The notes under the pieces were generated by a model, which was given only the letters and a program-made list of their open reading frames with translations, did no database searches and was not told the DNA's origin. Shown in pieces: positions 45,286-62,032 of a stretch of DNA of 64,000 bases; position 1 is the first letter of the stretch; the number at the start of each line of letters is the position of its first letter. Origin of the DNA: Treponema sp. GTDB taxonomy: Bacteria; Spirochaetota; Spirochaetia; Treponematales; Breznakiellaceae. The DNA is taken from the NCBI GenBank assembly GCA_031256445.1, contig JAIRQN010000029.1, forward strand, positions 1 to 64,000. Reading direction: 5' to 3'. Made by a program: the position numbers and the translations under genes.

Positions 45286-45540
45286 TCACGTTATTATTGA
45301 AATAAGCTGTTCTTCCTGAATACTTATAATATCAGGTTCGTTTGGCTCTTCTATACCAGCTGCTTTCATTAATCGGGCGCGTTCTTCCCATGAAATACCT
45401 CCCACTGGATGCCAATTAATCAATTCATCAGGAGATAATTTTTCACATCCTGGATCAAAAGCTTTATGCTTTTTTTGGGCTGCTTTTATTTTTTTTATCA
45501 TTTCAGGGGATAAACCAGAATCCTTTATTGCCTGTTCCAT
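45286..45540 (-). CDS. antitoxin-like partner of a BrnT-type toxin
   Basis: An 84-residue charged protein (GLSPEMIKKIKAAQKKHKAF) with no fold that I can identify. It overlaps the BrnT-like gene upstream by 38 bp, which is how antitoxins of this class are placed, so it is called an antitoxin by position only. It does not resemble BrnA clearly. Confidence 0.6.
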   Translation of the reverse strand: MEQAIKDSGLSPEMIKKIKAAQKKHKAFDPGCEKLSPDELINWHPVGGISWEERARLMKAAGIEEPNEPDIISIQEEQLISIIT

Positions 45541-45799
45541 AATAAATCCGCCTCTCCTCAGGCGTTGCTTCTCTAGCTGTTATAATACGAATTACATCTC
45601 CACGTTCTGTATATACAGCAAATAAAATGCCGTCTACCATACCTAATGTCTGCCATCGATCTTCCAACCCACTATGAGTTGCATCGTATTGAAGTATTCG
45701 GAAAGGATCATTGAATATTCGCTTGATTTTTTCCATGGTAAGACCATGTTTTTCAGCAATTTGCCGTTCCTTTTCTGAGTACCATTCAAATTTTAGCAT
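45503..45799 (-). CDS. BrnT-family toxin
   Basis: A 98-residue RelE-fold ribonuclease toxin. It begins MLKFEWYSEKERQIAEKHGL at the ATG at 45799. It has the conserved pattern DPFRILQYDATHSG ... EDRWQTLGMVDGILFAVYTE, then DVIRIITAREATPEERRIYY, close to the BrnT consensus (F-x-W-D, HGVSFE-type, R-x-I-SAR-x-A). It would inhibit translation by RNA cleavage when unopposed. The long open frame further upstream (to 45916) includes part of the repeat region and is not conserved. Confidence 0.82.
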   Translation of the reverse strand: MLKFEWYSEKERQIAEKHGLTMEKIKRIFNDPFRILQYDATHSGLEDRWQTLGMVDGILFAVYTERGDVIRIITAREATPEERRIYYGTGNKGFWFIP

Positions 45800-45863
45800 A
45801 CACTGGAACTCACAGTATATCATTTTGATGTAAAATATGTCAAACATATATGCGGGAACGGAC

Positions 45864-45947
45864 GTGCATATTGCTTTAGTCTCACTGGAGAAAAGAAGAA
45901 TTATACCACGAACCACACCAACGACACGAACCTGTTGATTTGATTAT
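45864..45947. repeat. dispersed intergenic repeat, copy A
   Basis: The block CATATTGCTTTAGTCT (near 45867) is also found near 48115 in diverged context. The 42-bp unit at 45906-45947 (starting ACCACGAACCACACCAACGA) recurs exactly at 49052-49093 and with one change at 49153-49194. It marks the borders of the accessory island. Confidence 0.8.
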
Positions 45948-45974
45948 TTAGAGTCTGTCTAAAGAACTACACCT

Positions 45975-46088
45975 TTATCGTTTAACATCACGATAAGAAT
46001 TCTCATGCGGACCAAGGGCTACGAAAGTGAGAGTATCGTCTTCAATTTTATAGGATTTTAAAAACTTATTGGTTTGCGTAATCTGCAT
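45975..46088 (-). pseudogene. C-terminal relic of a RelE/YafQ-like toxin
   Basis: ATG at 46088 opens a 37-residue frame ending YKIEDDTLTFVALGPHENSY plus a short basic tail, the typical end of ParE/RelE/YafQ toxins. About two thirds of a toxin is missing, including the catalytic helices. The ATG overlaps the stop codon of the ParD-like gene (TAATG). Confidence 0.75.
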
Positions 46089-46315
46089 TATTTATGCCTG
46101 AACTCAAAAGGTGTTACATCTCCGTTTTCCAATTCGGCTTTTCCAATTAATACATCTTCAATGAATGTATATGGAAGGTCAGGGTTTTCTTCCGCTATTT
46201 TACCAATGCGCGCCCTATGTTCAATCTGCATAGACACAGAACGGGTATAAACTGAGGCGTATTTGCCTGCTTCGAGCATAATATCATTTGAAAGTTGGAT
46301 CGCTGTTTGAGCCAT
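46088..46315 (-). CDS. ParD-like antitoxin
   Basis: A 75-residue protein (AIQLSNDIMLEAGKYASVYT and RSVSMQIEHRARIGKIAEEN) like the ParD_like family of ribbon-helix-helix antitoxins. Its toxin is reduced to the relic immediately downstream, so it is an orphaned antitoxin. Confidence 0.75.
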   Translation of the reverse strand: MAQTAIQLSNDIMLEAGKYASVYTRSVSMQIEHRARIGKIAEENPDLPYTFIEDVLIGKAELENGDVTPFEFRHK

Positions 46316-46481
46316 ACAGTTATTATGGTTCTATTTTATTAAGCAGTCAATTATCCGCAAAAAAAAACGCCCCTCGCAGGACGGTTTGTAAATTTTTTTA
46401 AACTACGCTGCCGGTGGTGTCCCGTTATCCACAAGTACACCAGATAATTTGGGTGGCTGCCACCATTGCGTTGCCCTTTTA
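46316..46481. other. non-coding gap with a palindrome
   Basis: The only structure seen is GGTGGC-T-GCCACC (46452-46464), a near-perfect palindrome downstream of the outer-membrane protein gene. No U-tract follows it. Confidence 0.3.
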
Positions 46482-47219
46482 TTATTTCTTTCCCCTGTTG
46501 TGAAGATTTGCCAGTTCAAAGCTGGCCCTGAATACCAAAGCCATGGAAAAAAAATTAAAACCGTACAGGTAATCATCATTATTTATAAATTCCAGCTCAC
46601 TGGACTCAACAGTATTTTTTTGAAATGAGCCGTTAACCCGGAAAAACATGCCGAATCCGCCTTTTCTTTCTTTTCTGCCTGACAGATCAAAACCAATATC
46701 AGCATACCAGCCTATATACGGCAATAAATTAAAAGTAACCGTTTCCTCATACGATCCTGCGCCATATAAAGGAAAATTTGCCGTACCGCCTGCGCCTAAT
46801 GAAAAAGCTCTTGCCGAAAAACGCAGGCCAAATGGAATGGAAACATAAGAAGCGAAAAACAATCCTTCATCTGGTATCAACAAATCCGTCACCTGGTACA
46901 GAAAAACAAATATATTAACAATCGGTATTGCGTACACATTTGGATCAATATTGCTATCGGAAATATAAACATGATAATTGCCGCTAATCCCAACTCCGGC
47001 GCCGAGCGCAAAGTAATCGGTAAAGTAGTATTCCGCGTTTGCTCCCCAGAAGAAACCAGGACCGGGGAACATGCCATAACTATCCATCAATCCAATAGAA
47101 GGAATTGCAAAACCAATCTGATGGTCAATGCCAAGCATAAGATCGCCTTTGTCATGCGCATAAACATTCCATGCCGTCAAAGCCAAAACCACAATTAATA
47201 ACAAGAAAGTTCGCTTCAT
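46482..47219 (-). CDS. outer-membrane beta-barrel-like protein
   Basis: A 245-residue protein with a signal peptide (MKRTFLLLIVVLALTAWNVY then A-H-D). The mature part alternates polar and aromatic residues in strands (FFWGANAEYYFTDYFALGAG, FGLRFSARAFSLGAGGTANF) and ends in FRASFELANLHNRGKK. It looks like a small outer-membrane barrel of unknown role. It is preceded by about 277 bp of A/T-rich DNA with no other gene visible. Confidence 0.75.
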   Translation of the reverse strand: MKRTFLLLIVVLALTAWNVYAHDKGDLMLGIDHQIGFAIPSIGLMDSYGMFPGPGFFWGANAEYYFTDYFALGAGVGISGNYHVYISDSNIDPNVYAIPIVNIFVFLYQVTDLLIPDEGLFFASYVSIPFGLRFSARAFSLGAGGTANFPLYGAGSYEETVTFNLLPYIGWYADIGFDLSGRKERKGGFGMFFRVNGSFQKNTVESSELEFINNDDYLYGFNFFSMALVFRASFELANLHNRGKK

Positions 47220-48093
<874 letters not shown>

Positions 48094-48107
48094 ACCCTTA
48101 TATGGGC

Positions 48108-48236
48108 GCGACCGTACATATTGCTTTAGTCTGGCGGGAAAAATATTTCCAAGAGATTAACCGCGAACATACCCAATTAAGCACAGCATAGCTGTGTAGA
48201 TGAATAATGCGTGAGGGATTTATCCCTAACTGTGCG
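48108..48236. repeat. diverged dispersed-repeat copy with hairpins
   Basis: CATATTGCTTTAGTCT near 48115 repeats the block near 45867. After a diverged CCGCGAAC stretch come CACAGC-ATA-GCTGTG (48182-48196), AGGGAT-TT-ATCCCT (48214-48227), and an outer pair GCACAG (48181) / CTGTGC (48230-48235), so the segment can fold into a compact structure. Confidence 0.5.
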
Positions 48237-48359
48237 CCCCGAACAAAACGAACTTGTTGTTTGAATTTTTAGCGCTGACATTGTTTGCGTGATTTTTTAC
48301 TCTTGCTGCTCTATTACACTTATCAGAATTTATCGCCTGACACTCCGGGGTAACCAAAA

Positions 48360-48755
48360 TTAAAATGGGATGCCGCCGTCTTTTCCAGGAAGCATAAAAG
48401 GAAGAATATGCAAGCGTGTCTTGCTGGAATCAATGGTAATAAGCGCACCCTGTTCAATTGCAGCAGAAAATTTAACGAAAACATCAATTACTCGATCAAG
48501 ATTCATTTCGGGACGAGTATCTTCGGCTCGTATTTGTATAACACTGGGACCAGAAGCGCGAGTAGAAACCAGAATGGCGCTAAAATCAAGATCGTTAGTA
48601 AAAACTGAATAACCATTTTCTCTTGCAAAGGTCATAATTTCTACGTCTTGCGCATTTCCCGCACCAATTGAAGACCAATGGACAGCCTCAATTCCTCTGC
48701 AAGAAAGCATATCTGCCCAACGGACGGCAAGATTCACATCAATAATAATTCTCAT
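48360..48755 (-). CDS. DUF5615 PIN-like toxin
   Basis: A 131-residue protein beginning MRIIIDVNLAVRWADMLSCR, with TNDLDFSAILVSTRASGPSV. It matches the Mut7-C/DUF5615 PIN-like toxins (D-x-N-L start, TxDxDF active-site block). The ATG at 48755 overlaps the end of the DUF433 gene, its regular partner. It would act as a ribonuclease toxin by analogy. Confidence 0.85.
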   Translation of the reverse strand: MRIIIDVNLAVRWADMLSCRGIEAVHWSSIGAGNAQDVEIMTFARENGYSVFTNDLDFSAILVSTRASGPSVIQIRAEDTRPEMNLDRVIDVFVKFSAAIEQGALITIDSSKTRLHILPFMLPGKDGGIPF

Positions 48756-48982
48756 GCAAGCGCAACATCCCTGCCTTGAGCTAACCATGCTGCATATTGT
48801 AAAGATTGCAGAATATCCTCCCGCTCAAGATAAGGATAATCAATTAATAGTTCATCTATTGTTTCTCCTGCGCCTATCTGTGACAGTATTCTACCCACAG
48901 TAAGACGCATACCACGAATACATGGCTTTCCGCCCATAACTGCGGGATCTTGGGTAATTCGGTCAAAATACTCAAACGTCAT
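48752..48982 (-). CDS. DUF433 antitoxin
   Basis: A 76-residue protein starting MTFEYFDRITQDPAVMGGKP. The pattern GKPCIRGMRLTVGRILSQIG then LEREDILQSLQYAAW is the DUF433 helix-turn-helix antitoxin consensus. AGGGAGAA precedes the ATG at 48982; an upstream ATG at 49021 is less likely. It is translated before its toxin. Confidence 0.88.
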   Translation of the reverse strand: MTFEYFDRITQDPAVMGGKPCIRGMRLTVGRILSQIGAGETIDELLIDYPYLEREDILQSLQYAAWLAQGRDVALA

Positions 48983-49453: not shown

Positions 49454-51574
49454 CTAGGGGCGTACTAGCCGGAAGCCGTGGCTGCCGAAGATGTCGCTAC
49501 TAAGTTCGGGTTGGAACGAGTTCCGCCACGCCGAAACAGCGATATTAGCCCTAGAGTAGAAGTCCCCGCCGCGCCGCATACGGTGGTATCTCCCCAATGA
49601 ATAAGACGCGCCTGTAGGATCTGTCTGCGCTGTAGTTGGATAATCTCCCGACCTGTCCCAGCACCACTCATATACGTTCCCGTACATATCATACAACCCC
49701 CACGCGTTAGGCAGTTTCTTTCCAACTTCATGCGTCATGTAGTTTGAATTGTCCCCATACCATGCGTAATTTGTAAGGTCGCTTTCATTATCTCCAAAAG
49801 ACCACGTTGTCGTCGTCCCTGCCCTGCATGCGTATTCCCACTGCGCCTCCGTAGGCAACCTGTAGCCGGTAGAACCTGCAACAACCTGTACTGCATCCCA
49901 TGTTGCATCTGCTTCCATGTTTGGTACTGTTCCCCAATCAGCAGTATCTGTACTGCCATTTATCCTGTATGCCGCAGTTAATCCTTCAATCATGCTTAAC
50001 TTGTTGCAGAATACTATAGCATCATACCAGTTTACCATTTCCACAGGGCGTCTGCTCTGGATTTCTCCCTCAGGTGTGTCTTTACGTTCGTTAAGACTAT
50101 ATATTCCATCAAAGTAACTTGGATTATTTCCCATAACTACCTGATACTGTTCCTGAGTTACTTCATACTTGCCCATGTAGAAACCGCTGGTTAATGTCAC
50201 CTGATGCGGTGTTTCTTCTTTTTTTACTCCATAAGATACATATGAAATACCGCCCATTGTGAAAGTACCCGGATTAATCCATACCATGCCAATAATATCC
50301 ACATTCCACTTTGCATACAGTGTTACATTTCCTGTTACTGTATAAGTAGAACCTACCGCATACGTTGTTCCGCTGCCATTTGCGGCAGTATTCCAGCCTG
50401 TAAATGCGTACCCGGTTTTTACAAGACTTCCCTTATCAGGAAGAGTAATGCTTGCGTTTTGGTTTGCGCTCATCGCATCCGGAGCTGTCCCGCCTGTCGC
50501 GCCGTTGGCGTTAAATGTAACCGTATACTCCCACTTCGCGTAAAGAGTTGTATCGCCTGTTACCGTAAAAGAGGAATCTGGCGTATATGTCTCCCCGCTG
50601 CTGTCTGCGTTTTCATTCCAGCCGCCGAAAGCATAACCGGGTTTGGAAAAAGAACTGTTATTTGGCAATGTTATGTCTGTACTGTAATCTGCCGTCTGAG
50701 TAGTTGGAGCGGTTCCGCCGGCGCCGTTAATGTCAAAAGTAACTGTGTAATTATTAATATTCCACTTTGCGTAAAGAGTTAAGTTGGCGGCAATTATATA
50801 TGTAGAACCTGCCGCGTATGTTGTCCCGCTTCCTTCTGCGTCCGCGTTCCAGCCGCCGAAGGTATGGCCGGGCTTGGAAAAAGCGCCGCCGCCCGGCAGT
50901 GTTATGATTGAACCTTCAGAAACTGTCTGCGCGTCAGGGGCATTCCCGCTTGCGTTGTTTACGTCAAATATAACCGTAAACATCCCCGGCGTATTCCATT
51001 TTGCGTATAATGTAATATATCCTGTTACCATATAAGAAGAACCTGCCGCGTATGTCATTCCGCTGCCGTCCGCGGCTGTGTTCCAGCCTGCAAATGCGTA
51101 CCCGGCTTTTACAAGACTTCCCTGGTTAGGCAGCGTAATAGCCGTGTTTTGGCTTGCGTTTATATGGTAGGGAGCCGTCCCGCCTGTCGCGCCATTGGCG
51201 TTAAATGTAACGGTTAATAAACCGGCGGGCATCCACCTCGCGTAAAGAGTTGCATTTCCTGTTACCGTATAAGATGAACCTGCCGCGTATGTTATCCCGC
51301 TGCCGTCTGCGGCTGTGTTCCAGCCTGCAAATGCGTACCCGGCTTTTACAAGATTTCCCTGGCCGGGCAGCGTAATGTCCGTGTTTTGGCTTGCGCTCAC
51401 CGCGTCCGGCGCTGTCCCGCCTGTCGCGCCGTTGGCGTCAAAGGCGACTGTGCGTCTCTCCCTCTCTCTTACCCTGTCCCTCAGTTCTTCAATATCAGTC
51501 CCAAGGGAACAAGCCGCAAATAACAGGCAAAAAACCGCAGCCAAACTGCTTACACTTAACGTAAAATATTTCAT
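49454..51574 (-). CDS. lipoprotein with five InlB-type repeats and a SUMF1 domain
   Basis: A 706-residue surface protein. The lipoprotein signal ends LLFAAC (Cys about 22). Five repeats of about 75 residues follow (residues about 43-430), each with the Listeria-Bacteroides pattern VTFNANGATGG ... KxGYAFxGWN ... TLYAKW. The C-terminal about 275 residues form a formylglycine-generating-enzyme-like (SUMF1) domain: IGMVWINPGTFTMGG, KYEVTQEQYQVVMG, YRLPTEAQWEYACRAG, GLYDMYGNVYEWCWD and GSHGFRLVR. The Cys pair of true FGE is not evident, so it is more likely a non-enzymatic or ligand-binding form. GGAG precedes the ATG. It lies 49 bp downstream of the caspase-domain gene. Confidence 0.9.
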   Translation of the reverse strand: MKYFTLSVSSLAAVFCLLFAACSLGTDIEELRDRVRERERRTVAFDANGATGGTAPDAVSASQNTDITLPGQGNLVKAGYAFAGWNTAADGSGITYAAGSSYTVTGNATLYARWMPAGLLTVTFNANGATGGTAPYHINASQNTAITLPNQGSLVKAGYAFAGWNTAADGSGMTYAAGSSYMVTGYITLYAKWNTPGMFTVIFDVNNASGNAPDAQTVSEGSIITLPGGGAFSKPGHTFGGWNADAEGSGTTYAAGSTYIIAANLTLYAKWNINNYTVTFDINGAGGTAPTTQTADYSTDITLPNNSSFSKPGYAFGGWNENADSSGETYTPDSSFTVTGDTTLYAKWEYTVTFNANGATGGTAPDAMSANQNASITLPDKGSLVKTGYAFTGWNTAANGSGTTYAVGSTYTVTGNVTLYAKWNVDIIGMVWINPGTFTMGGISYVSYGVKKEETPHQVTLTSGFYMGKYEVTQEQYQVVMGNNPSYFDGIYSLNERKDTPEGEIQSRRPVEMVNWYDAIVFCNKLSMIEGLTAAYRINGSTDTADWGTVPNMEADATWDAVQVVAGSTGYRLPTEAQWEYACRAGTTTTWSFGDNESDLTNYAWYGDNSNYMTHEVGKKLPNAWGLYDMYGNVYEWCWDRSGDYPTTAQTDPTGASYSLGRYHRMRRGGDFYSRANIAVSAWRNSFQPELSSDIFGSHGFRLVRP

Positions 51575-51623
51575 TTATACTCCATAGATTTTGGGAATAA
51601 TTCTCCCTCTCATCACTGCCATG

Positions 51624-52991
51624 TTATAAAAATCTCTTTACAAACCCAACCGCGATCTTGTTATTCACAGAACGGAAATCCGTCCGCATGATATAGGAAA
51701 CGTTAAACATATTCGCGATTAAGACTCCACCGCTGACATCCAGCGCGAAATAGTTTTCAGAAATTTTTCCTTCAGGGAAAGTAAACGTGCTGAACATCAC
51801 GCCTCCCCCCGCGCCGGCGTACAGGCCGCTTTTGTCAAAAAACGGAAAGAACGCGCAATAATGGGCGAAAGGAAAAAATGAATAATACTGCGCTTCGTCA
51901 TAACCGCTTACAAACCCGATGTCAACTCCCAAATCAAAAAATGAATATTTAAACGGGGAGAAGGTTCCCTGTACAGTGCCTGTTACCCAGGGAGCCGAAA
52001 AAGACGTTCCTACAGACGCGCCTATGGAATTAAACTGGGATTTATCTTTTTCTTTTTTCGGTTTGGAAGACGCCGGGCTGAAAGAAGGAGCGGTATCAGG
52101 CTGCGCGGAAGGGCGCGGCGCAGAAGAGCGCGGAGCGGCCGAAACGGCGGGAGCTGAGGCGTTCAATGTATAATAAATATCGCTGATTATGCTGCCTCGG
52201 TAAAAGGGTCTCTGTCTTTGATCTGTAAGAGACAGGGTTTCGTTGGCGACATGAGCCGCCATTATGGCGATTGGCTCTGTAGATTTAATGTGCTTCAAAA
52301 ACGCCTGCGCAAAAGGGCTGTTCCGCTTTCCGGGAAGCCCGTCATCGGCTTTGTTGCCGGGCGCGGTGGAAAACATAATGAATAAATCGGGCGGCAAATC
52401 GTTAACTACAGAAAGCCCTCTCGCGCCGCTTCCGCGCGTTCCTGTCGGCAGCGGATTATCCCTGCATGAATCCAAAACAATGACATTTACCTTGTTCTTC
52501 GCTCCTTCCAGAATGTCAAGCAGGTTGTTAAGCGAATACGAGCCTGCGCGCACGCGGCTTTCGCTGTCAATTGTAACGTCAACAGGCAGCAGGTAATTTT
52601 CATCGCGTATCTGCACCGCGTGTCCCGCGTACCAGAAAAAGCCTTCGCTTGTCTTGTTGCTTTTAAGGCGCGCGGCAAAAGCGTCCACAGCGTCTATCAT
52701 CTGGTAATGATCAAGGTTTATTTTTATATCCACCTGATACCCCAGTTCCAGAAGAGCTTCTCCTATATCGCGCGCGTCGTTTTCGGTATTCTTCAGTTTC
52801 TCAATGCGCTGGTAATCCATATTCCCTATCACAAGCGCGTACTTCAGCGGAGCTGAAACATTCAGAGGAGCTGACGTATTCATCGGAGCTGATACATTCT
52901 GCTCATCTGAAACATCCTGCTGTGCGAAAGATACGCTGACCGCAGCAGCTAAAAAAAGAACAAAAAACACATTGATTTTACCGTACTGCAT
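51624..52991 (-). CDS. exported caspase-domain (C14) protein with barrel-like C-terminus
   Basis: A 455-residue protein. A signal peptide (to SFAQQ) and a Ser/Ala/Pro-rich linker with repeated NVSAP/NTSAP precede a caspase-like peptidase p20 domain (about residues 48-265). YALVIGNMDY is the first strand, the catalytic His is in FWYAGHAVQ (residue 124) and the catalytic Cys in IVLDSCRDNP (residue 176). After a Pro/Ser linker (RSSAPRPSAQ) the last about 135 residues alternate like beta-strands of an outer-membrane barrel (SFFDLGVDIGFVSGYDEAQY). GGGG plus ATG lies at 52991. It may be a periplasmic or surface protease; its target is unknown. Confidence 0.85.
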   Translation of the reverse strand: MQYGKINVFFVLFLAAAVSVSFAQQDVSDEQNVSAPMNTSAPLNVSAPLKYALVIGNMDYQRIEKLKNTENDARDIGEALLELGYQVDIKINLDHYQMIDAVDAFAARLKSNKTSEGFFWYAGHAVQIRDENYLLPVDVTIDSESRVRAGSYSLNNLLDILEGAKNKVNVIVLDSCRDNPLPTGTRGSGARGLSVVNDLPPDLFIMFSTAPGNKADDGLPGKRNSPFAQAFLKHIKSTEPIAIMAAHVANETLSLTDQRQRPFYRGSIISDIYYTLNASAPAVSAAPRSSAPRPSAQPDTAPSFSPASSKPKKEKDKSQFNSIGASVGTSFSAPWVTGTVQGTFSPFKYSFFDLGVDIGFVSGYDEAQYYSFFPFAHYCAFFPFFDKSGLYAGAGGGVMFSTFTFPEGKISENYFALDVSGGVLIANMFNVSYIMRTDFRSVNNKIAVGFVKRFL

Positions 52992-53108: not shown

Positions 53109-53477
53109 TTATCCGGTTTCTGCGTATTTCTTTACGCTTTCCAGCAATTCTGACGGCTTAAAAGGTTTATCAATAACATCAAGAACTCCGCAGTTTTCCG
53201 CCGCAGACAGCAATTTTTCATCACGAAAACCTGTAAGGAATAAAACAGGAATGTCTTTCCATTGGCGGTTTTCTTTCAGGCGGGCAGCCGCTTCAAGGCC
53301 GCTTATTTCCGGCATTTGGACATCCAGGAGGATTAAATCCGGTTTTTTTTTCTCAAGAAGGGAAAACATTTTTTGAGCCGAAGGCATTGTCAGTACCCGG
53401 TATTCCCCCTCCAGGGCACAGGCCGCAACAGTCAGATTGGCGTCGTTATCGTCTACTATAAATATCAATTTCTGCAT
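53109..53477 (-). CDS. single-domain response regulator
   Basis: A 122-residue stand-alone receiver. IVDDNDAN holds the acidic pair, LILLDVQMPEISG the phospho-acceptor Asp, FLTGF the Thr position and DVIDKPFKPSELL the Lys. It has no output domain. It lies 2 bp after the double-receiver gene and ends the phosphorelay operon. It would receive phosphate from the HPt domains, by analogy with CheY-like and phosphorelay regulators. Confidence 0.93.
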   Translation of the reverse strand: MQKLIFIVDDNDANLTVAACALEGEYRVLTMPSAQKMFSLLEKKKPDLILLDVQMPEISGLEAAARLKENRQWKDIPVLFLTGFRDEKLLSAAENCGVLDVIDKPFKPSELLESVKKYAETG

Positions 53478-53479
53478 AG

Positions 53480-54334
53480 TTATCCCATGTTGTTTTTTAA
53501 GTCTTCTCTGAACAACCGCATTTGTTTTGCGATCCTTATATGTCTGGCGACTTTATCGTTCAATTCCCTGGGCTTGAAAGGTTTTACGATAAAGTCAGAA
53601 GCGCCGATGGAAATTGCCTTGTTCACATGATCCATTGTACCTTCGGTTGTTATAATTATAATCGGAGTATCCTCATAATCCGGCATTGCCCGTATCATCT
53701 GGATAAGATCAAAACCGTTCAATACGGGCATTAAATAATCAAGAAGGATCAAATCCGGTTTTTTCGTCCGCAGAAAATCAAGTACGTCCTGGGATTTGGA
53801 AAGTATATACACTTTAAACCGGTCATGCAGGGCGTATTGCATTGCGCGTAACATACTGGTTACATCGTCAACAATAAGAACAACAGGCTTGTTGCCGGTT
53901 TCATCTCCGGCTGAAGCTTCTTTTTGATCCAAAGAACTCAGGTTATTCTCGACAATCTCAATTAACTTTGAAGCGTTATAAGGTTTGATAATATAATCAA
54001 CCGCTCCCAGGCTTAAGCCTTTAACCACGCTTTCCCTGTCGCTTTTCCCTGTCAGGAAAACTACCGGAATGGCGGAAAAACGCCCGTCAGCTTTCAGGGT
54101 TTTAATGGCTTCATATCCGTCAACATCAGGCATGTTGACATCCATGAGAATTAAATCGGGAGTAATATTTTCAAGCATTTCGAACATTTTTCCGGCGGAA
54201 TCCGCGGTAAAAACATCATATTGATTCTGCAGCCTGTTTTTCGCCGATACAAGACTGTACTGTACGTCGTCAACATAAATAATTTTTCTTCGCGTTCCAG
54301 CAATTTGAGACAATGATTTAGCCGGTTCTTTCAT
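53480..54334 (-). CDS. double-receiver response regulator
   Basis: About 284 residues made of two receivers in tandem and little else. Domain 1 (residues 16-135): IIYVDDVQYSLV, LILMDVNMPDVDG, FLTGK and YIIKPYN. Domain 2 (about 150-270): LIVDDVTSMLR, LILLDYLMPVLNG, IITTEG and IVKPFKP. All phosphorylation residues are intact in both. No output domain. The ATG at 54334 follows GGAGAG and overlaps the end of the large kinase gene, which ends at 54318. Confidence 0.9.
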   Translation of the reverse strand: MKEPAKSLSQIAGTRRKIIYVDDVQYSLVSAKNRLQNQYDVFTADSAGKMFEMLENITPDLILMDVNMPDVDGYEAIKTLKADGRFSAIPVVFLTGKSDRESVVKGLSLGAVDYIIKPYNASKLIEIVENNLSSLDQKEASAGDETGNKPVVLIVDDVTSMLRAMQYALHDRFKVYILSKSQDVLDFLRTKKPDLILLDYLMPVLNGFDLIQMIRAMPDYEDTPIIIITTEGTMDHVNKAISIGASDFIVKPFKPRELNDKVARHIRIAKQMRLFREDLKNNMG

Positions 54335-57300
54335 TACCATAACTCTCCAGTTTTTCAATTATTTCCCTGAAATTCGTTCTGTCAATATTGTCCCGCAGCC
54401 AGTCTGCAAGACCGTCATCCGCCGTATATTTATACTTTTCTATTTCCGCCATCGCCTTGTCCGCTTCCTCAATATCATAATCTTTGCAGGCGTCAAGAAA
54501 CTTTTTCAGTGTTTCAGTGTCAGGAGAATCTTTGTGCGGTTTCGGGTTTTCCGCTTCAAGGTCATCAAACATTTTTTCCAAACCGCCGATTAATTTCCAT
54601 GCATCCGCAAGGAATGTTTTGTGGCGCTCATGTATGAAGCTAAAATCGCCTTTTTTTGCCGCTTCTTCAAGTTCTTTCGCTTTAATGCCAATAGGGCCCG
54701 CGCCGACATCAATGCTTGTTCCCTTAATCCCATGAACTTTTATTTCGTAATTTTTGATTGTCCCCTCATCAGGTTCTTTTTCGATTTCCTCAAGCAGCGA
54801 ACCAACGCTGGATTTGTACGAACGCAGAACTCTAAGGTATTGTTTTTCATCGCCTTCGTACCGTTCCAGTCCCGTCGCCATATCCAGTCCGTCAATTTTT
54901 TTATCCAGAAGCCTTGTTTTGGTTTCGCCTAACGTATCCATATACGCTTCTGCCTCCGCTTCAGCCTCCTCAAATTCGCTGTGAAGCACATGTTCCGTAA
55001 TCCTGTCCAGAACCGCTCTTGTCTGTCTTGAACAACCAGCGGATTTCCCCGCGGCGCCTCCAGCGGCCCGTATTTCATTTAACGAATCCAAAGTTCCTTT
55101 TCTGTCGTAGTCAGCGCACAGTTTTTTAATGACCGCCATCCTGCCGCGTAAATCATCGATGTCCTCATTCCCCGGCGTATCTCCGCCGTCTTCTTCCCGT
55201 TCTGATTCCAGTTTTTCCGTTAGCTGGCGCAATTTATTCAGGAATTCCGGTGACAATTCCTTTAACAGCTCTATGTTTTCCTCCCGTCCTTCCGTCTCCA
55301 GCCTGTTTGCCTCATCGGAAAGCTCTTTTTCGCCAATATTAGAAAGGGAACTTTTAATGCCGTGAACTGTTGTTACAAACTTTTTTAACGTATCCCCGTT
55401 TTCAAATCCGTTTTTATCTTCCAGCAGCGCCGCGGCTTTATGCGCGTCACGGATAAAAGATGCCATCAAAACCGAATCTATCGCGGCGCTGTTCCCGGTC
55501 ACTGCATATCCGGCAGGTACGGCGTTTTTGTTTTGCCGCCTTGCCGCTTCTATTACTTCAGCCGGCTGCTTGTCCCGCACAAATTTGTTAAGAATCGTGT
55601 TCATCTGCCGTATATCTATCGGTTTTGATATAAAATCGTCAAAACCGTTATTAATAAACATATCCGCCTGCCCGGACACCGCGTTTGCTGTAAGAGCGAT
55701 AATCGGCTCGCTGTAACCCAGGGCGCGTATATGTTTTGCCGCCTCTATGCCGTCCATTTCAGGCATCATGTGATCCATGAAAATAATATCGTATATTTTG
55801 CCTTCCTTTATTTTATCAATGGCTTCCTGTCCGCTCATGGCAGTGTCAATTTGCAGCCTGTATAATTTCATAAGACCGACGGCGACATAGATATTTGTTT
55901 CTACATCGTCAACGACCAGAATGTTTCCGTAGGGCATCGGGTCGCGCACGATTTTGTTCCTCACTCTCCTGGTCATAAAATTAATCTGGAACTGACGCAG
56001 GTTGTCAGCTACATCGCTTCCGATAATTTCCCTGTTTTCAGTTTCCTGCGGCAGCTTGACGATAAAATGAGTGCCTTTATCAGGCTCGCTTTCCACGCTG
56101 ATATTTCCGTCCATAAGGTCAACAAGACGCTTTGTGATCGTAAGGCCAAGTCCTGTGCCTTCGATTGTAAGATTTTTTCTTAGGTTAAATCGCGTATATT
56201 CTTCAAACAATTTTTTTAACTGATCTTTTGTCATTCCATTGCCGGTATCCCTGACGCTCAGAACCAGAATTATGCCTTCCCTGTCATGTCCGAGCCATTT
56301 AACCTGGTTATTCATCAAATGATCAGGCAGATACGAGATTAACGGAATTGGTTCTGTAGAGACAGATAATATAACCTTTCCCGAATCAGTATACTTAAAC
56401 GCATTGGACAAAAGATTATTCAAAATTTGTTTAATGCGAAGCGAATCGCCTATAAGATTCGCCTGAGTATTTTCATCGATTTTAAGCTCAAACTCAATCG
56501 GCTTTGATTCAACGCGCATCATGTTCAATTGAACGGAATCATTTATCATGCTTGCGACTTTATAAGGAGAAGGCATTATGTCAAGTTTACCAGCTTCAAT
56601 TTTTGAAAAATCCAGTATGTCGTTGATGATACCCAAAAGCATATCGCAGGAGTTGTAAATTTTATCCAGTCCTTCTTCGATATCCGCAGGCAATTGTTCA
56701 TTGGATATTAATAATTCGGTAACGCCGAGAATTGCGTTCATCGGCGTGCGTATCTCGTGGCTCATATTCGCAAGGAAGCTGGATTTTGCGGAATTCGCGA
56801 GATTCGCGGCCTCGTGCGCCTTGTACCTCTCGGAGCCTGAAACGGCAAGCGCCATTAAATCCGCGAGGGAAGAAGCAAAGTTCTGCTCTTCTATCGTCCA
56901 CTCGCGTTTTTGAGGATAATCATCGCATATCCACTGTTCTACGCAGACAACTCCAACCATCTGACCGTCAACGCGGATTGGCGCGTCAAGAGCCGCGCAT
57001 AAAAAATCATATCCGCTGAAAGAATCGGTAATCAGCCTGCACTCATCAATATTGTTCATGATAATAAGACGCTCGGATTTCAGCAGTTTCAGATATTCCT
57101 GATGGTTTGTCAGATTAAATGTTTCCAGAGAATCCCTTTCATTGGTGAACATATCATAACTGGAAATGCATTTTAAAATATTATCATTCCCAAAATAGCT
57201 CCATATGCCTATGCGGTGAGCGCTCAGCGCGGTGCATCCTTCCTGCGCGACAATATCAGAGGCGTCTTTTAAAATTCCCGCGGAAATGGTCGGCGACTTT

Positions 57301-59465
57301 GTGATTTTCGCGAGCGCATGATTCAATTTTTTGGAATACTCATAAGAGAACGCGGTTTCCTGTTCAATTTTTTTAAGCTTTGATATGTTATGCGAAATAC
57401 CGATAATTCCCACTACCGCGCCGTTAAGCATAAGAGGCACTTTTGTCGTTTCATAAAGATGGCTTGTTCCGTCCGCGCAGGGAATATTTTCTTCAACTGT
57501 AGTTATGCAGTTCTCATATATTGCTTTCGCGTCATGTTCCATGTGGAAGCCCGCTATATCAGCCGGAATATCAAGAACATCAGAGTCGGTCTTTTCCAGC
57601 ATGTCTTCCATGCGCTTGTCAAAATTTTTCAAAAACGCCTTGTTGCAGCTCTTGTATTTTAAACTCAGATCCTTTGTAAAAATAAGATCGGGAATGGAAT
57701 CAAATAAGGTAGTAAGGGTGGCGGTTTGAAGCGCGAGTTCATCAGTGCGTTTTTTAACAATTTTTTCCAGATTCCTGCCTGTCATGCGGCTTCTGACAAA
57801 GAAAACTGCTATCAGCGTCAGTACAAGCAAAAAAAGCAGGGATAAACCCATAAACAGCGGGCGCTGCGCTTCCACAACCTTGCTGCGGTAATCGTAGGTT
57901 CTTCTCAACCAGTGATCCGAAATGCTCTTGGTGTCTATGTTGACAAGCGCTTTGTCAATAATGGAACAAAGAATTTCCGCGTTTTTGTTAATGCCGAATT
58001 GAATATCCATCGCATAGTCAAACACTATATTGGTTTTGTAATCGGGAAGTTCCATATAATGGGTCAGATACAAAAGCCTTCTCTGGTTTGCCATGACCAT
58101 GTCAATTTCCCCGCGCATCAGCGCGGCAAACGCTTCTTCAACGCTTTCGTACTCAACTGTCTTTGTATGGCCGGGGAACCATTTATTAAAAACCGCGGCA
58201 TAGGCGGTATTCTTCGCCAGGCCAACCCTGGCATATAAAACCTCGTTGAGTTTTATATCGGGGAAGTCGATATGTGAAATCAGCGCATAAAAATCGGTTA
58301 TGTGCGCCGACCCTGGCCATAAAAACTGCCCATCGCGTTCATGCGACTGGTTTAGTTCAGTAACCAGAGCAACATCCCCTCTCTTTAGCATTTCGAATAT
58401 TTGCGGCCACTGAGTATGTTCATCATTAACGCGGTTAAAAGTTAATCCTGTAAGATACGATATTTCATCAAGTATATCCAGAGACGTCCCGCGCCATTTT
58501 TTTTCGCGCGCGTCATAAAAAGAGCCGGGGTAATTGCCCGGATCAACGCCAACCGGCACCGTTGGATTATTGCGGATAAAATTAAATTCTTCTTCTGTTA
58601 GCTGCATTTGCACCTTATGCTTCATATATTCAGTGTGCGACTTGTTATACAGCGCTGTCAGGTAATGCAGGCTGCCTTCAGTTTGCAGTATTTTTTCCAC
58701 TGCCGAGATGATTGGATCAAGGGCGGGATTGTGAGTCGATAAAGAAACCGGACTGTAGATCAGCGGGTAAAAATAAAAAGCCGCCATGTCGCTGTGTTCA
58801 ATAAAATTTATCTCCGAGGTGCCAGTGTAATAGAAGGCGTCAATTTTACCGCTTTTAAGAGCGTCGTAAACTAAACTGACATCATCCAGTATAACAGCCT
58901 CAAATGCGCCCGGATCAAGTTCGGAAGACACGGTAAATATTGTGGCAGTGCCCTTAATGAAGCCGCAGCGGATCCGGCGATCTTTGATTATTTCATCAAG
59001 AGGGTTTGCGCCTGCCAGGCGGAAATATTTAAGCGGACGCATCGCGATAGCGCTTGTCATGCGGTAAATTTCAAGCCGTTCCGCCCTTGCCGTTAATTCG
59101 CCTGTGAAGGAGATTTCTCCGGTTTCCAGACCTGCGAGCAATTCATTCCACTCGTAAAGCGCGGGCCGGAAGGTAATGCCGAAAATCCCTGAGAGCCATT
59201 CGCAGAACAGGGCGGTAAATCCATTGATATCGCCGTTTTTATCCTTAAACGCTTCCGTACTAAGCGGCATTCCGTAAATAAGCGCGTCGTTATTTTCCCG
59301 GATTCTGGCGATGGCGTTTTTTTCTTCCTGTGTCACGCCGGGAATTTCAGTGTAAGATGAAATTAAATACTTGCCGGAAAATTTGTTTTTATCAGAGGCG
59401 GAACACCCAAAAAAAATTATGGATATAAGCGTTATAACCAGTATTAATATTTTTTTATTTTTCAT
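54318..59465 (-). CDS. hybrid histidine kinase with two solute-binding sensors, PAS, GAF, REC and two HPt domains
   Basis: A 1715-residue membrane kinase from the ATG at 59465, overlapping the upstream kinase gene by 11 bp. In order: lipoprotein-like signal (FFGCSAS, Cys 21); two SBP_bac_3-like periplasmic domains (about 35-280 and 290-525); a membrane helix (about 536-558); PAS (about 580-700, SIPDLIFTKD); GAF (about 714-880); HisKA with SFLANMSHEIRTPMN (His 903) and HATPase (LNNLLSNAFKYT, DTGNGM, EGTGLGLT); receiver (LVVDDVETN, Asp 1231 in IIFMDHMMPEMDG). HPt-1 follows with His 1368 in TTVHGIKSSLSNIG, then an extra HPt-2 with His 1578 in IKVHGIKGTSID. All phosphotransfer residues are present. 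It probably senses small amino-acid-like ligands and feeds the downstream receivers. Confidence 0.92.
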   Translation of the reverse strand: MKNKKILILVITLISIIFFGCSASDKNKFSGKYLISSYTEIPGVTQEEKNAIARIRENNDALIYGMPLSTEAFKDKNGDINGFTALFCEWLSGIFGITFRPALYEWNELLAGLETGEISFTGELTARAERLEIYRMTSAIAMRPLKYFRLAGANPLDEIIKDRRIRCGFIKGTATIFTVSSELDPGAFEAVILDDVSLVYDALKSGKIDAFYYTGTSEINFIEHSDMAAFYFYPLIYSPVSLSTHNPALDPIISAVEKILQTEGSLHYLTALYNKSHTEYMKHKVQMQLTEEEFNFIRNNPTVPVGVDPGNYPGSFYDAREKKWRGTSLDILDEISYLTGLTFNRVNDEHTQWPQIFEMLKRGDVALVTELNQSHERDGQFLWPGSAHITDFYALISHIDFPDIKLNEVLYARVGLAKNTAYAAVFNKWFPGHTKTVEYESVEEAFAALMRGEIDMVMANQRRLLYLTHYMELPDYKTNIVFDYAMDIQFGINKNAEILCSIIDKALVNIDTKSISDHWLRRTYDYRSKVVEAQRPLFMGLSLLFLLVLTLIAVFFVRSRMTGRNLEKIVKKRTDELALQTATLTTLFDSIPDLIFTKDLSLKYKSCNKAFLKNFDKRMEDMLEKTDSDVLDIPADIAGFHMEHDAKAIYENCITTVEENIPCADGTSHLYETTKVPLMLNGAVVGIIGISHNISKLKKIEQETAFSYEYSKKLNHALAKITKSPTISAGILKDASDIVAQEGCTALSAHRIGIWSYFGNDNILKCISSYDMFTNERDSLETFNLTNHQEYLKLLKSERLIIMNNIDECRLITDSFSGYDFLCAALDAPIRVDGQMVGVVCVEQWICDDYPQKREWTIEEQNFASSLADLMALAVSGSERYKAHEAANLANSAKSSFLANMSHEIRTPMNAILGVTELLISNEQLPADIEEGLDKIYNSCDMLLGIINDILDFSKIEAGKLDIMPSPYKVASMINDSVQLNMMRVESKPIEFELKIDENTQANLIGDSLRIKQILNNLLSNAFKYTDSGKVILSVSTEPIPLISYLPDHLMNNQVKWLGHDREGIILVLSVRDTGNGMTKDQLKKLFEEYTRFNLRKNLTIEGTGLGLTITKRLVDLMDGNISVESEPDKGTHFIVKLPQETENREIIGSDVADNLRQFQINFMTRRVRNKIVRDPMPYGNILVVDDVETNIYVAVGLMKLYRLQIDTAMSGQEAIDKIKEGKIYDIIFMDHMMPEMDGIEAAKHIRALGYSEPIIALTANAVSGQADMFINNGFDDFISKPIDIRQMNTILNKFVRDKQPAEVIEAARRQNKNAVPAGYAVTGNSAAIDSVLMASFIRDAHKAAALLEDKNGFENGDTLKKFVTTVHGIKSSLSNIGEKELSDEANRLETEGREENIELLKELSPEFLNKLRQLTEKLESEREEDGGDTPGNEDIDDLRGRMAVIKKLCADYDRKGTLDSLNEIRAAGGAAGKSAGCSRQTRAVLDRITEHVLHSEFEEAEAEAEAYMDTLGETKTRLLDKKIDGLDMATGLERYEGDEKQYLRVLRSYKSSVGSLLEEIEKEPDEGTIKNYEIKVHGIKGTSIDVGAGPIGIKAKELEEAAKKGDFSFIHERHKTFLADAWKLIGGLEKMFDDLEAENPKPHKDSPDTETLKKFLDACKDYDIEEADKAMAEIEKYKYTADDGLADWLRDNIDRTNFREIIEKLESYGNERTG

Positions 59466-61959
59466 TTTTTGCCAAATCAGCCGCGTATTCTTTGGCCGTT
59501 TTTTCCGCTTCATCAAATTCACTGTGAAGCGCATGCTCCGCAATTATTTCCAAAACCGCTTTGGTTTCTTTGGAGTAATTTTTAACGCCTGCGATTATAT
59601 CCAATATTCCCTTCCTGTCGTAATCCCCGGCCATCCGCTGAATTTCGTTCAACGCGCCGCTCAATTTTTCCATATCATCATCTTCAGATGCTTCGTTTCC
59701 GCCTGGTTTGAATTCCTTCTTTTCCAGAAGAGCGCGTAACTTATCAAGGAATTCGGGAGCAGTTTTTTTAATAAGGTTTATATCATGTTCGCGTCCGCCT
59801 GTTTCAAGCAGCAGCGCCAAATCCGCTGTTTCTGTTTCCTGAATGTTCCATAAAGCGCTCTTTATGCCGTGAATCATTACGGTAAATTTTTGCAATACAG
59901 CATTGTCTTCAAATTCATTTTTCAGCAATGCTTCATCCAGCCAGGCTGCAGCTTTGTTCGCGTCTCTGATAAATGAATCAATTAAAAAAGAATTAATCTG
60001 TTCATGATTTGAATCGCCGCCCGTTTCTTTAGAAACGCCCGCTTCTTCAGAAACGGACGTTTCATTTTGCCTGCGCGCTGATTCAATTATTTCAGGAGAT
60101 TGTTTGTCGCGGATAAAAGTATTTAAGACAGAGTCGAGCTGGCGTATATCTATCGGTTTGGATATAAAATCGTCAAAACCGTTCTCCAGGAACATATCCG
60201 CCTGCCCTGTTACCGCGTTTGCAGTAAGCGCAATAATGGGATGAGCGTATCCAAAACCGCGAATGCGTTTTACCGCTTCCAGTCCGTCCATTTCAGGCAT
60301 CATGTGATCCATAAAAAGAACATCGTAAATATTGCCTTCTTTTATTTTATCAATCGCTTCCTGTCCGCTCATGGCAATTTCAATTTGCAGTTTGTAAAGT
60401 TTCAAAAGACCGGCTGCGATATAAATATTGGTTTCTATATCGTCAACAACCAGAACTTTTCCGTAGGGCATCGGATCGCGCTCAATCTGCCCTCTTTGCC
60501 CGTGTATCATGTAATTTTTGCGGAACTGCCTGAGATTTTCCGTAACGTCTTTGCCCAGCGTTTCGTCATCTACAATTTCCTGCGGAAGACGCGCCGTGAA
60601 TAATGTGCCTTTATCCGGTTCGCTTTTTACATGTATTTGACCGCCCATTAAATTTATAAGACGGTGCGTAATCGCAAGACCAAGCCCGGTTCCCTCTACA
60701 TAATTTTTGCTTCTCTGATTAAAACGCGCATACTCCTCGAACAATTTATCCAGTTGATCATTTGTCATGCCCTGACCGGTATCCTGCACGCTTAATACAA
60801 GAGTTACCTGATTACTCCGCTGCTGAGGCTGCGCGGTTTCCGGTTTAGCTTCAACTTCTACCGATAATATAACTTTTCCGGTGTCAGTATATTTGAAAGC
60901 GTTGGAAAGCAGGTTATTTAAAATTTGTTTGATGCGAAGTTCGTCGCCGATTAATTTCGCCGGCACATTTTCATTTACCAGAAGCTCAAATTCAACCGGT
61001 TTTGATTCAGTGCGCATCATGTTAAGGTGCACCGAATCATTTATCATGCTTGCGACTTTGTACTGAGCGGGTATAATGTCAATTTTTCCCGCTTCAATTT
61101 TTGAAAAATCAAGTATGTCGTTGATGATGCCCAAAAGCAAATCACACGAGCTGTGTATCTTGTCAAGGCCTTCTTCAATATCTTTGGGAATTTTTTCATT
61201 CTGTATCAATATTTCCGTGACGCCGAGAATCGCGTTCATCGGCGTGCGTATCTCGTGGCTCATGTTCGCAAGAAAAGAAGATTTTGACCGGGAAGCGGCA
61301 AGAGCCGCGGCTTCCGCTTCCTTGCGCTTTGTTATGTCACGGGCAATGCCCAAAATTCCCACAACACTATCATTTAACACAAGAGGCATTTTTATCGTTT
61401 CATATAACGGCCTTGTGCCGTCAAAGCGCGGTATGCGCTCTTCTATTGTAACAGGCTGTTTTTCGCGGATAACCTTGCGATCCATGTCGGTGTAAGCATG
61501 AGCTTCCTCTTCCGTCATCCCCATGTCTTTACTGTCGTAATTCCCCGTAATCTCATTTATTCCCTTGTTGAAATGTTCCAGAAAAGCTTTGTTGCAATGC
61601 AGGAATTTTAAATTCAGGTCCTTGGTAAAAATTAAATCGGGAATTGAATCAAACAATGCCGATAAAGTGGCTGTCTGAAACGCAAGTTCATGAGCGCGTT
61701 TTTCAACCAGCTTTTCAAGTTCTTTACCGGTAAGGCGGCTTCTGAAAAAAAGAACAACAACAAGCAGCAGTACAAGCAAAGATAAATGATTAACCGTAAA
61801 TTTTATGCCGAATAATCCGATCAGCCATTCACAAAAAAGAGCGGAGTACTCTTTTATTTCTCCATCTGTATTTCCCCGACCGCCGCAGCCGGAAATAAGC
61901 GCAGATAACAATATTACAGGAAATAAACAGCATATTGTATCGATGAATCTTTTTTTCAT
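59455..61959 (-). CDS. hybrid histidine kinase, paralogue lacking the sensor domains
   Basis: An 834-residue kinase from the ATG at 61959. A lipoprotein-like signal (LISGCGG, Cys 25) is followed by only about 20 residues of the sensor domain (EYSALFCEWLIGLFGIKF, parallel to FTALFCEWLSGIFGITF in the larger kinase) and then directly by the membrane helix. PAS (SIPDLIFTKD), HisKA (His 235 in SHEIRTPMN), HATPase (EGTGLGLA), receiver (Asp 551 in VLFMDHMMPEMDG) and one HPt (His 697 in MIHGIKSALWNI) follow. GAF and the second HPt are absent. It is otherwise closely alignable with the larger kinase downstream, so the two arose by duplication and then diverged by deletion or gain. Confidence 0.9.
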   Translation of the reverse strand: MKKRFIDTICCLFPVILLSALISGCGGRGNTDGEIKEYSALFCEWLIGLFGIKFTVNHLSLLVLLLVVVLFFRSRLTGKELEKLVEKRAHELAFQTATLSALFDSIPDLIFTKDLNLKFLHCNKAFLEHFNKGINEITGNYDSKDMGMTEEEAHAYTDMDRKVIREKQPVTIEERIPRFDGTRPLYETIKMPLVLNDSVVGILGIARDITKRKEAEAAALAASRSKSSFLANMSHEIRTPMNAILGVTEILIQNEKIPKDIEEGLDKIHSSCDLLLGIINDILDFSKIEAGKIDIIPAQYKVASMINDSVHLNMMRTESKPVEFELLVNENVPAKLIGDELRIKQILNNLLSNAFKYTDTGKVILSVEVEAKPETAQPQQRSNQVTLVLSVQDTGQGMTNDQLDKLFEEYARFNQRSKNYVEGTGLGLAITHRLINLMGGQIHVKSEPDKGTLFTARLPQEIVDDETLGKDVTENLRQFRKNYMIHGQRGQIERDPMPYGKVLVVDDIETNIYIAAGLLKLYKLQIEIAMSGQEAIDKIKEGNIYDVLFMDHMMPEMDGLEAVKRIRGFGYAHPIIALTANAVTGQADMFLENGFDDFISKPIDIRQLDSVLNTFIRDKQSPEIIESARRQNETSVSEEAGVSKETGGDSNHEQINSFLIDSFIRDANKAAAWLDEALLKNEFEDNAVLQKFTVMIHGIKSALWNIQETETADLALLLETGGREHDINLIKKTAPEFLDKLRALLEKKEFKPGGNEASEDDDMEKLSGALNEIQRMAGDYDRKGILDIIAGVKNYSKETKAVLEIIAEHALHSEFDEAEKTAKEYAADLAKNEK

Positions 61960-62032
61960 CGCAAATACCACCCGGTTTTCTGTAATTTTTTCCCCGCTAA
62001 TGGTACTTTTTAATCACAAATACCACCTGGTT
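61958..62032. repeat. direct repeat covering the kinase translation start
   Basis: A 20-bp unit, ATC(G/A)CAAATACCACC(C/T)GGTT, occurs at 61958-61977 (antisense to the ATG and its GGGTGG ribosome site) and again at 62013-62032. On the minus strand the second copy reads GGTGGTATTTGTGATTAAAAAG, an inactive version of the true start. Confidence 0.65.

Follow-up and report, generated by a model that had tools for sequence, protein, structure and literature searches.

The window, that is, the whole 64,000-nucleotide stretch of a Treponema sp. contig that was analysed, carries on its minus strand a gene whose product is, by its sequence, a caspase-family cysteine protease of the orthocaspase type with a new architecture: the protease domain stands behind a signal sequence and ahead of a predicted eight-stranded outer-membrane barrel, and a lipoprotein gene follows directly downstream. 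The barrel recurs as a mobile module at the C-terminus of proteins and is essentially confined to one Treponema family. The favoured interpretation, held with slightly better than even confidence, is that of a periplasmic caspase of the Arg/Lys type that is anchored in the outer membrane and has a cognate lipoprotein partner, which would sense or present something. The features concerned are the following:

51624..52991, minus strand: caspase-barrel gene, a single open reading frame of 455 amino acids (Pfam caspase match; barrel model)
52923..52991, minus strand: signal sequence, residues 1–23, Sec-type, without lipobox (read by eye)
52848..52898, minus strand: three units of NVSAP-type repeats, residues 32–48 (read from the sequence)
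52197..52844, minus strand: caspase (Peptidase_C14) domain, residues 50–265 (Pfam; phmmer; MALT1 fold match)
52620..52622, minus strand: catalytic His124 in YAGHA (kept in 31/31 readable homologues)
52464..52466, minus strand: catalytic Cys176 in DSCRD (kept in 31/31 readable homologues)
52416..52445, minus strand: flexible loop, residues 183–192, with TRGSGAR, a candidate autoprocessing loop (pLDDT <50)
52050..52190, minus strand: Ser/Pro/Ala-rich linker, residues 268–314 (pLDDT <50)
51627..52049, minus strand: predicted eight-stranded outer-membrane barrel module, residues 315–455 (AlphaFold2; OprF/OmpA fold match)
51575..51623, minus strand: inter-gene gap of 49 nt, the two genes likely sharing one transcript (no terminator-like site inside the gap)
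49454..51574, minus strand: partner lipoprotein of 706 amino acids with five Flg_new/InlB-type repeats and an FGE-sulfatase-fold domain (Pfam; lipobox LFAAC by eye)
51480..51511, minus strand: acyl-Cys and N-terminal motif CSLGTDIEELR of the partner lipoprotein (genome-wide pattern; regex counts)

The first-pass annotation had described an exported caspase-like peptidase with an intact His/Cys dyad behind an NVSAP-type repeat linker, and each of these elements was recovered: the Sec-type signal at about residues 1–23, the three repeat units (relatives L062, L066 and L075 have a single unit, for example QQNVSAPQKYALVIGN in L075), and both His124 and Cys176. Peptidase_C14 was the sole Pfam family matched by the window protein at E values up to 1 (E 9.5e-30, 104.4 bits against a cut-off of 21.4). 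MALT1 was the top solved structure by sequence (phmmer, E 3.3e-12), and the full-length model was superimposed on it with a Z score of 25.7 (rmsd 2.8, 215 residues aligned). Loss of the dyad in homologues was looked for and is ruled out for the loci examined, as His and Cys were retained in all 31 readable homologues, including 11/11 with a barrel. These 31 are the readable homologues of the fetched loci only; further caspase places exist (for example 19 matches in genome G026, a few of which are in this set), and a caspase gene broken into two halves on contig C49 of the window's genome (G000) was excluded from the dyad and tree counts. Inactive relatives exist beyond this set, because a 2012 survey, in the part available, reports that only 89% of the caspase homologues of spirochaetes have the dyad (PMC3501461).

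The flexible loop that follows the catalytic Cys contains an Arg preceding GL in 10/11 barrel-caspases, and this Arg-GL site is a candidate autoprocessing site at which the protein may cleave itself. Asp72 and Asp174 were conserved when the homologues were compared; by comparison with MALT1 and metacaspases they are presumably P1-pocket residues favouring Arg/Lys, and the window caspase would thus cleave after Arg or Lys.

The C-terminal region, in which a resemblance to an outer-membrane barrel had been noticed and for which a structure prediction (residues 315–455) had been proposed, was modelled as residues 298–455 with AlphaFold2 from a 13-row alignment. Eight antiparallel membrane strands close a barrel in the predicted structure (mean pLDDT 90.6, pTM 0.78). 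The best solved match was the N-terminal barrel of OprF (Z 18.1, rmsd 1.9, 129 residues aligned), OmpA gave a Z score of 17.0 (rmsd 2.3, 139 residues aligned), and Foldseek returned OmpA, Ail, NspA and OmpX. A soluble C-terminal fold is ruled out by this model and by its scores against OprF and OmpA. A classical type V autotransporter, of which the translocator is a 12-stranded C-terminal barrel, is ruled out by the eight strands in the model. The window protein ends in KRFL, some relatives in YRF and others in YRFK and similar residues; a C-terminal aromatic residue is the beta-signal of outer-membrane barrels. As the barrel of the window protein matched no Pfam family at E values up to 1, OMP_b-brl included, it is called OmpA-like in fold and not a member of a Pfam family; OMP_b-brl was touched by 3/20 relatives (best E 8e-4).

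The full-length model (13-row alignments) retained both caspase and barrel (pLDDT 74.9, pTM 0.51); with this pTM, no relative placement of the two is given. The model-to-fold alignment covers the OmpA and OprF barrels end to end, and since the predicted barrel is eight-stranded with OmpA topology, both of its ends and the caspase would lie in the periplasm. The earlier proposal of an outer-membrane-anchored protease facing either the periplasm or the surface can thus be narrowed on the strength of this alignment: the caspase is most likely periplasmic.

The distribution of the barrel module was determined by profile search. It was found in 18/39 genomes of the genus, with E values down to 1.9e-65, and is by these figures well above chance; it was also found in 36/195 genomes of the family, spread over 13/56 of its genera. 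In an order-wide draw it occurred in 14/146 genomes and in a phylum-wide draw in 3/247, each time with a single and marginal match outside the family (E 3.1e-4 and 2.9e-4, respectively). Barrel genes from a first set (47) and a later set (18) were examined, 65 in all; the barrel matches in genomes G186, G248, G251 and G263 other than C128 lie outside this set. Ten Treponema MAG contigs and one contig labelled Lentimicrobiaceae are the named relatives. The sample codes Emb289, Th196 and Co191 appear in the available part of a paper on termite-gut MAGs (PMC7024585), and the spirochete from which the window comes is related to termite-gut spirochetes.

What precedes the barrel is variable. The N-terminal regions of the 47 barrel proteins of the first set formed four clusters (17, 8, 7 and 2 members, the caspases being the cluster of 7), with five singletons and eight regions too short to be placed. 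Four members of the largest cluster were scanned, and three of them (L042, L048, L173) match LpoB above the Pfam cut-off and the fourth (L038) below it; L048 matches CsgG as well. LpoB and CsgG act in the periplasm, and a periplasmic side for the N-terminal domains is supported by the match of all four scanned proteins to LpoB. In one locus (L040 2731-3780, G007:C1) the barrel gene lies in two frames with one internal TGA, and the lipoprotein gene is still next to it.

The pairing with a lipoprotein was counted for the 43 of the 47 barrel genes that are followed by at least 350 nt, the other four being set aside for having less. A lipoprotein gene lies directly downstream on the same strand in 33/43 cases by a lipobox script and in 38/43 by eye (added by eye: L048, L083, L052, L187, L175); as a yardstick, the script was passed by 42/274 other open reading frames of at least 150 amino acids in these loci. 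The five barrel genes without a same-strand lipoprotein are L188, where a motif-bearing lipoprotein gene lies beside the barrel gene but convergent to it, L053, L181, L174, and L040 2731-3396, which is the first piece of the broken barrel gene. The gap between the two genes has a median of 11.5 nt and is at most 60 nt in 35/38 pairs. In the later set, all from outside the window's genus (L194 and L195 were excluded as lying on the same contigs as L082 and L081), a lipoprotein is next in 15/18 cases by script and in 16/18 by eye (L203 added). The exceptions are L211, whose next gene belongs to the same short family but has no readable signal, and L204, with none. The promoter scan gave 11 terminator-like sites (5.4 expected), none of them between the caspase-barrel and lipoprotein genes, and two promoter-like sites, both on the plus strand (6.4 expected). 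The pairing appears from these sequences as a feature of the whole family, and it can reflect co-expression alone.

The domains of the 38 partner lipoproteins are diverse and match 49 Pfam families: Flg_new repeats were found in 12, Lcl_C in eight, the FGE-sulfatase fold in seven, fn3 in six, LRR_5 in four, and other domains besides; 8/55 partner lipoproteins end at the edge of the fetched DNA. It is tentatively suggested that the barrel proteins and their partners form an undescribed modular outer-membrane system in termite-gut treponemes, in which a constant barrel would be combined with exchangeable periplasmic output domains (caspase, CsgG/LpoB-like and others) and with cognate lipoproteins carrying exchangeable binding domains. 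Such units could function across the outer membrane as receptors or for display, and the one with the caspase would be a receptor-coupled periplasmic protease.

Many partner lipoproteins of the genus open, at the lipid-bearing cysteine, with C-x-L-[EG]-x-D-I-[DE]-x-L-R or a similar sequence. A strict DNA pattern of this motif occurs at five places in the 39 genomes, four of them directly behind barrel genes and the fifth on G000:C49 (reversed control, one place). A relaxed pattern gave 11 places (reversed control, three): seven behind barrel genes, the C49 place, an orphan on G059:C300, and two attributed to chance, of which one (G018:C341) falls in the interior of a protein, distant from its start, and the other (G061:C52) lacks a lipoprotein open reading frame of at least 100 amino acids in frame. 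A regex written after the partners had been seen matched 32/38 partners and 1/70 other lipobox open reading frames, the single non-partner lying convergent with a barrel gene. The longer form with DIxxLR is present in 17/38 partners. Outside the genus, the fixed regex (the C-x-L-[EG] half) matched 4/18 partners of the later set, with a shifted LEG or LDG visible by eye in several, and the DIxxLR half was found in 0/18. The post-Cys motif is on these counts a feature of the genus and the pairing a feature of the family.

These data bear on a simpler account, which is considered rather unlikely: the barrel would merely anchor an independent periplasmic protease, and the lipoprotein would be co-transcribed with it, the two proteins never touching. 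The loops of the modelled barrel are short, the lipoprotein domains vary freely, and the two motif-bearing lipoproteins on G000:C49 and G059:C300 have no preceding barrel gene, so that the lipoprotein may not need the barrel; all three points fit this account. Against it, the pairing stays constant while the N-terminal and the lipoprotein domains vary, and the residues after the acyl-Cys are alike among the partners of the genus, although this likeness was scored with a post hoc regex that fell to 4/18 in the later set.

It is improbable that the caspase serves to mature its partner by trimming it after basic residues behind the lipid anchor and thereby releasing or activating it. A precedent exists in Arg-gingipain, which matures fimbrial lipoproteins, and the tether of the window lipoprotein is very basic, with DRVRERERR right after the motif; L078 has LRSSR. 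However, no richness in basic residues is seen in the tether of other caspase-linked partners (C26, L161, L162), and the same motif stands beside barrels that carry no caspase (L046, L165, L050). For the latter reason, caspase cleavage at DIxxLR is ruled out as a general rule.

Caspase-barrels make up 11 of the 65 barrel genes examined, all with the dyad, and come from five genomes: G000 (the window and C26), G029, G011, G060 (two) and G289 (five). In a tree of the 31 caspase domains, the 11 barrel-linked ones are not one clade (AU p 2.5e-52). The barrel label changes six times on this tree, at least four of these changes being forced by starred branches, and it is less scattered than when labels are shuffled (mean 9.3 changes; 3/500 shuffles as low). 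The window caspase groups with seven barrel-free caspases (100/99), apart from the other ten caspase-barrels. Caspase and barrel would accordingly have met repeatedly, and the tree fits gain or loss of the barrel alike. As a side observation, locus L037 (243-15617, G012:C22) holds six caspase genes in about 15 kb, one of which carries TPR repeats with a weak TPR_Slam match as well (E 4e-4).

The readable partners of caspase-barrels carry an FGE domain in 6/10 cases, compared with 7/45 for other barrels (Fisher p 0.007; the test is exploratory and includes related loci). When FGE-less partners cut by the edge of the DNA are left out, the figures become 6/9 and 7/40 (p 0.0065, likewise exploratory with related loci). 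Among the four caspase-barrel partners without FGE, one (L202) ends at the edge of the fetched DNA. Of the barrel-free caspases, 13/20 carry FGE in the same chain, so that the two-gene form of caspase and FGE looks like a split of a common fusion. In the FGE domain of the window, the EWCW motif is not followed by a Cys, whereas true FGE enzymes have their active cysteines at that place, and the domain is therefore probably a binding domain. A diversity-generating retroelement acting on it is ruled out, as no RVT_1 match was found in the genome (97.7% complete).

Two further loci were noted on contig C49 of the window's genome. L149 1610-1797 (G000:C49:51109-51296) is an operon copy that lacks the caspase-barrel gene: the beginning of the caspase gene (89.5% over 105 bp) continues directly into the signal region of the lipoprotein gene (100% over 80 bp), and the two are joined between the stretches that code for the signal sequences. 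In L066 3979-5458, a caspase-FGE gene lies in two overlapping frames near the dyad His, which may be decay or an assembly error.

In the favoured reading of a periplasmic, membrane-held caspase with a cognate lipoprotein, the caspase-barrel protein would leave the cytoplasm by Sec, its C-terminal eight-stranded barrel would insert in the outer membrane, and the flexible Ser/Pro linker would keep the caspase in the periplasm. It would belong to a modular two-gene unit in which the N-terminal domain of the barrel protein and the binding-type domains of the next-gene lipoprotein both vary; the window version would be a caspase with an InlB-repeat/FGE-fold lipoprotein. The lipoprotein would join the barrel protein at the outer membrane, docking via its N-terminal segment, and its FGE and repeat domains would sense or present a ligand by which the caspase is controlled or which the caspase serves. 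The lipoprotein may face outward, since its domains are of the surface type, or inward, since in single-chain caspase-FGE proteins the two domains share a compartment.

Most discussion of bacterial caspases treats them as intracellular agents of stress or cell death; a caspase that is anchored in the outer membrane, probably on its periplasmic side, and is paired with a lipoprotein offers a concrete site and a candidate regulator. The window protein resembles orthocaspases and caspase-FGE proteins in its caspase fold, dyad, Asp72/Asp174 and FGE companion; in orthocaspase-FGE proteins the FGE domain is in the same chain, whereas here it is on a separate lipoprotein. Among the 671 prokaryotic caspase homologues of the 2012 survey, FGE-sulfatase is the fifth commonest companion domain (33/671), and OmpA domains occur in 14 operons (PMC3501461, in the part available). 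Fusion of a caspase to a barrel is absent from the available parts of this survey and of one from 2016 (PMC4933709). Neither a caspase fused to an outer-membrane barrel nor the barrel–lipoprotein pairing was found in the open-access literature searched, as far as its text was available, and the pairing is apparently undescribed there.

The gingipains are clan CD proteases that act outside the cytoplasm. The window protein differs from them in matching C14 and not C25 (Peptidase C25), and it carries a barrel where they have type IX secretion signals. In L161, a C25 match that barely exceeds the Pfam cut-off (24.4 against 23 bits, E 2.1e-5) accompanies the C14 match, and the same double match occurs in 2/20 barrel-free caspases. 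Barrels of the OmpA/OprF/OmpX type have, like that of the window, eight antiparallel strands over the same length. The window barrel is C-terminal and stands behind a long N-terminal domain, unlike OmpA, which carries its periplasmic domain after the barrel. RcsF-OmpA combines a lipoprotein with an outer-membrane barrel, a combination seen in the window pair as gene adjacency; the RcsF and OmpA genes are unlinked, and neither carries a protease. RcsF-OmpA is described as a sensor across the outer membrane, formed by a lipoprotein with an outer-membrane protein (PMC9907809 and PMC4942254, both in part), and T. pallidum has four single-domain eight-stranded barrels (PMC8407342, in part).

Slam resembles the window pair in that its outer-membrane barrel has an N-terminal domain and its gene lies next to one for a lipoprotein. 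Slam/DUF560 proteins combine 14 strands with TPR, whereas the window protein has eight strands and a caspase, and the phylum differs. The closest analogues are Slam pairs in gene order and RcsF-OmpA in parts, and the window system is a member of neither. Little credence is given to a Slam-like role in which the barrel would help the lipoprotein to the cell surface and the caspase would act at that step. The gene order is similar to that of Slam-substrate pairs, and fn3, LRR_5 and Flg_new, found among the partners, are kinds of domain often displayed on surfaces, but an eight-stranded barrel of the OmpA type is too narrow for a folded domain. In the available part of PMC7857515, no Slam homologue was found in spirochetes and a Slam-like 'flippase' is said to be yet to be discovered there, which leaves room for such a role; the same source gives the Slam barrel as predicted to be 14-stranded, which speaks against it. 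A lipobox gene lies beside 185/353 Slam homologues (PMC5449769, in part). The barrel–lipoprotein pairing bears on how spirochetes, with no Slam found, place or use their outer-membrane lipoproteins.

The neighbourhood of the pair was inspected as well. Directly upstream of the caspase-barrel gene and on the same strand, two large hybrid histidine kinases and two response regulators are encoded (53109-61971). Small genes of toxin-antitoxin or mobile type lie at 45503-48788, among them a BrnT toxin (E 2.7e-20), a DUF5615/PIN-like protein (E 5.9e-19) and overlapping fragments at about 47497-48160; for one of these fragments a longer copy exists at G000:C49. The region 46482-47219 encodes an exported protein of 245 amino acids with a weak match to OMP_b-brl (E 0.037, below the cut-off), possibly another outer-membrane barrel.
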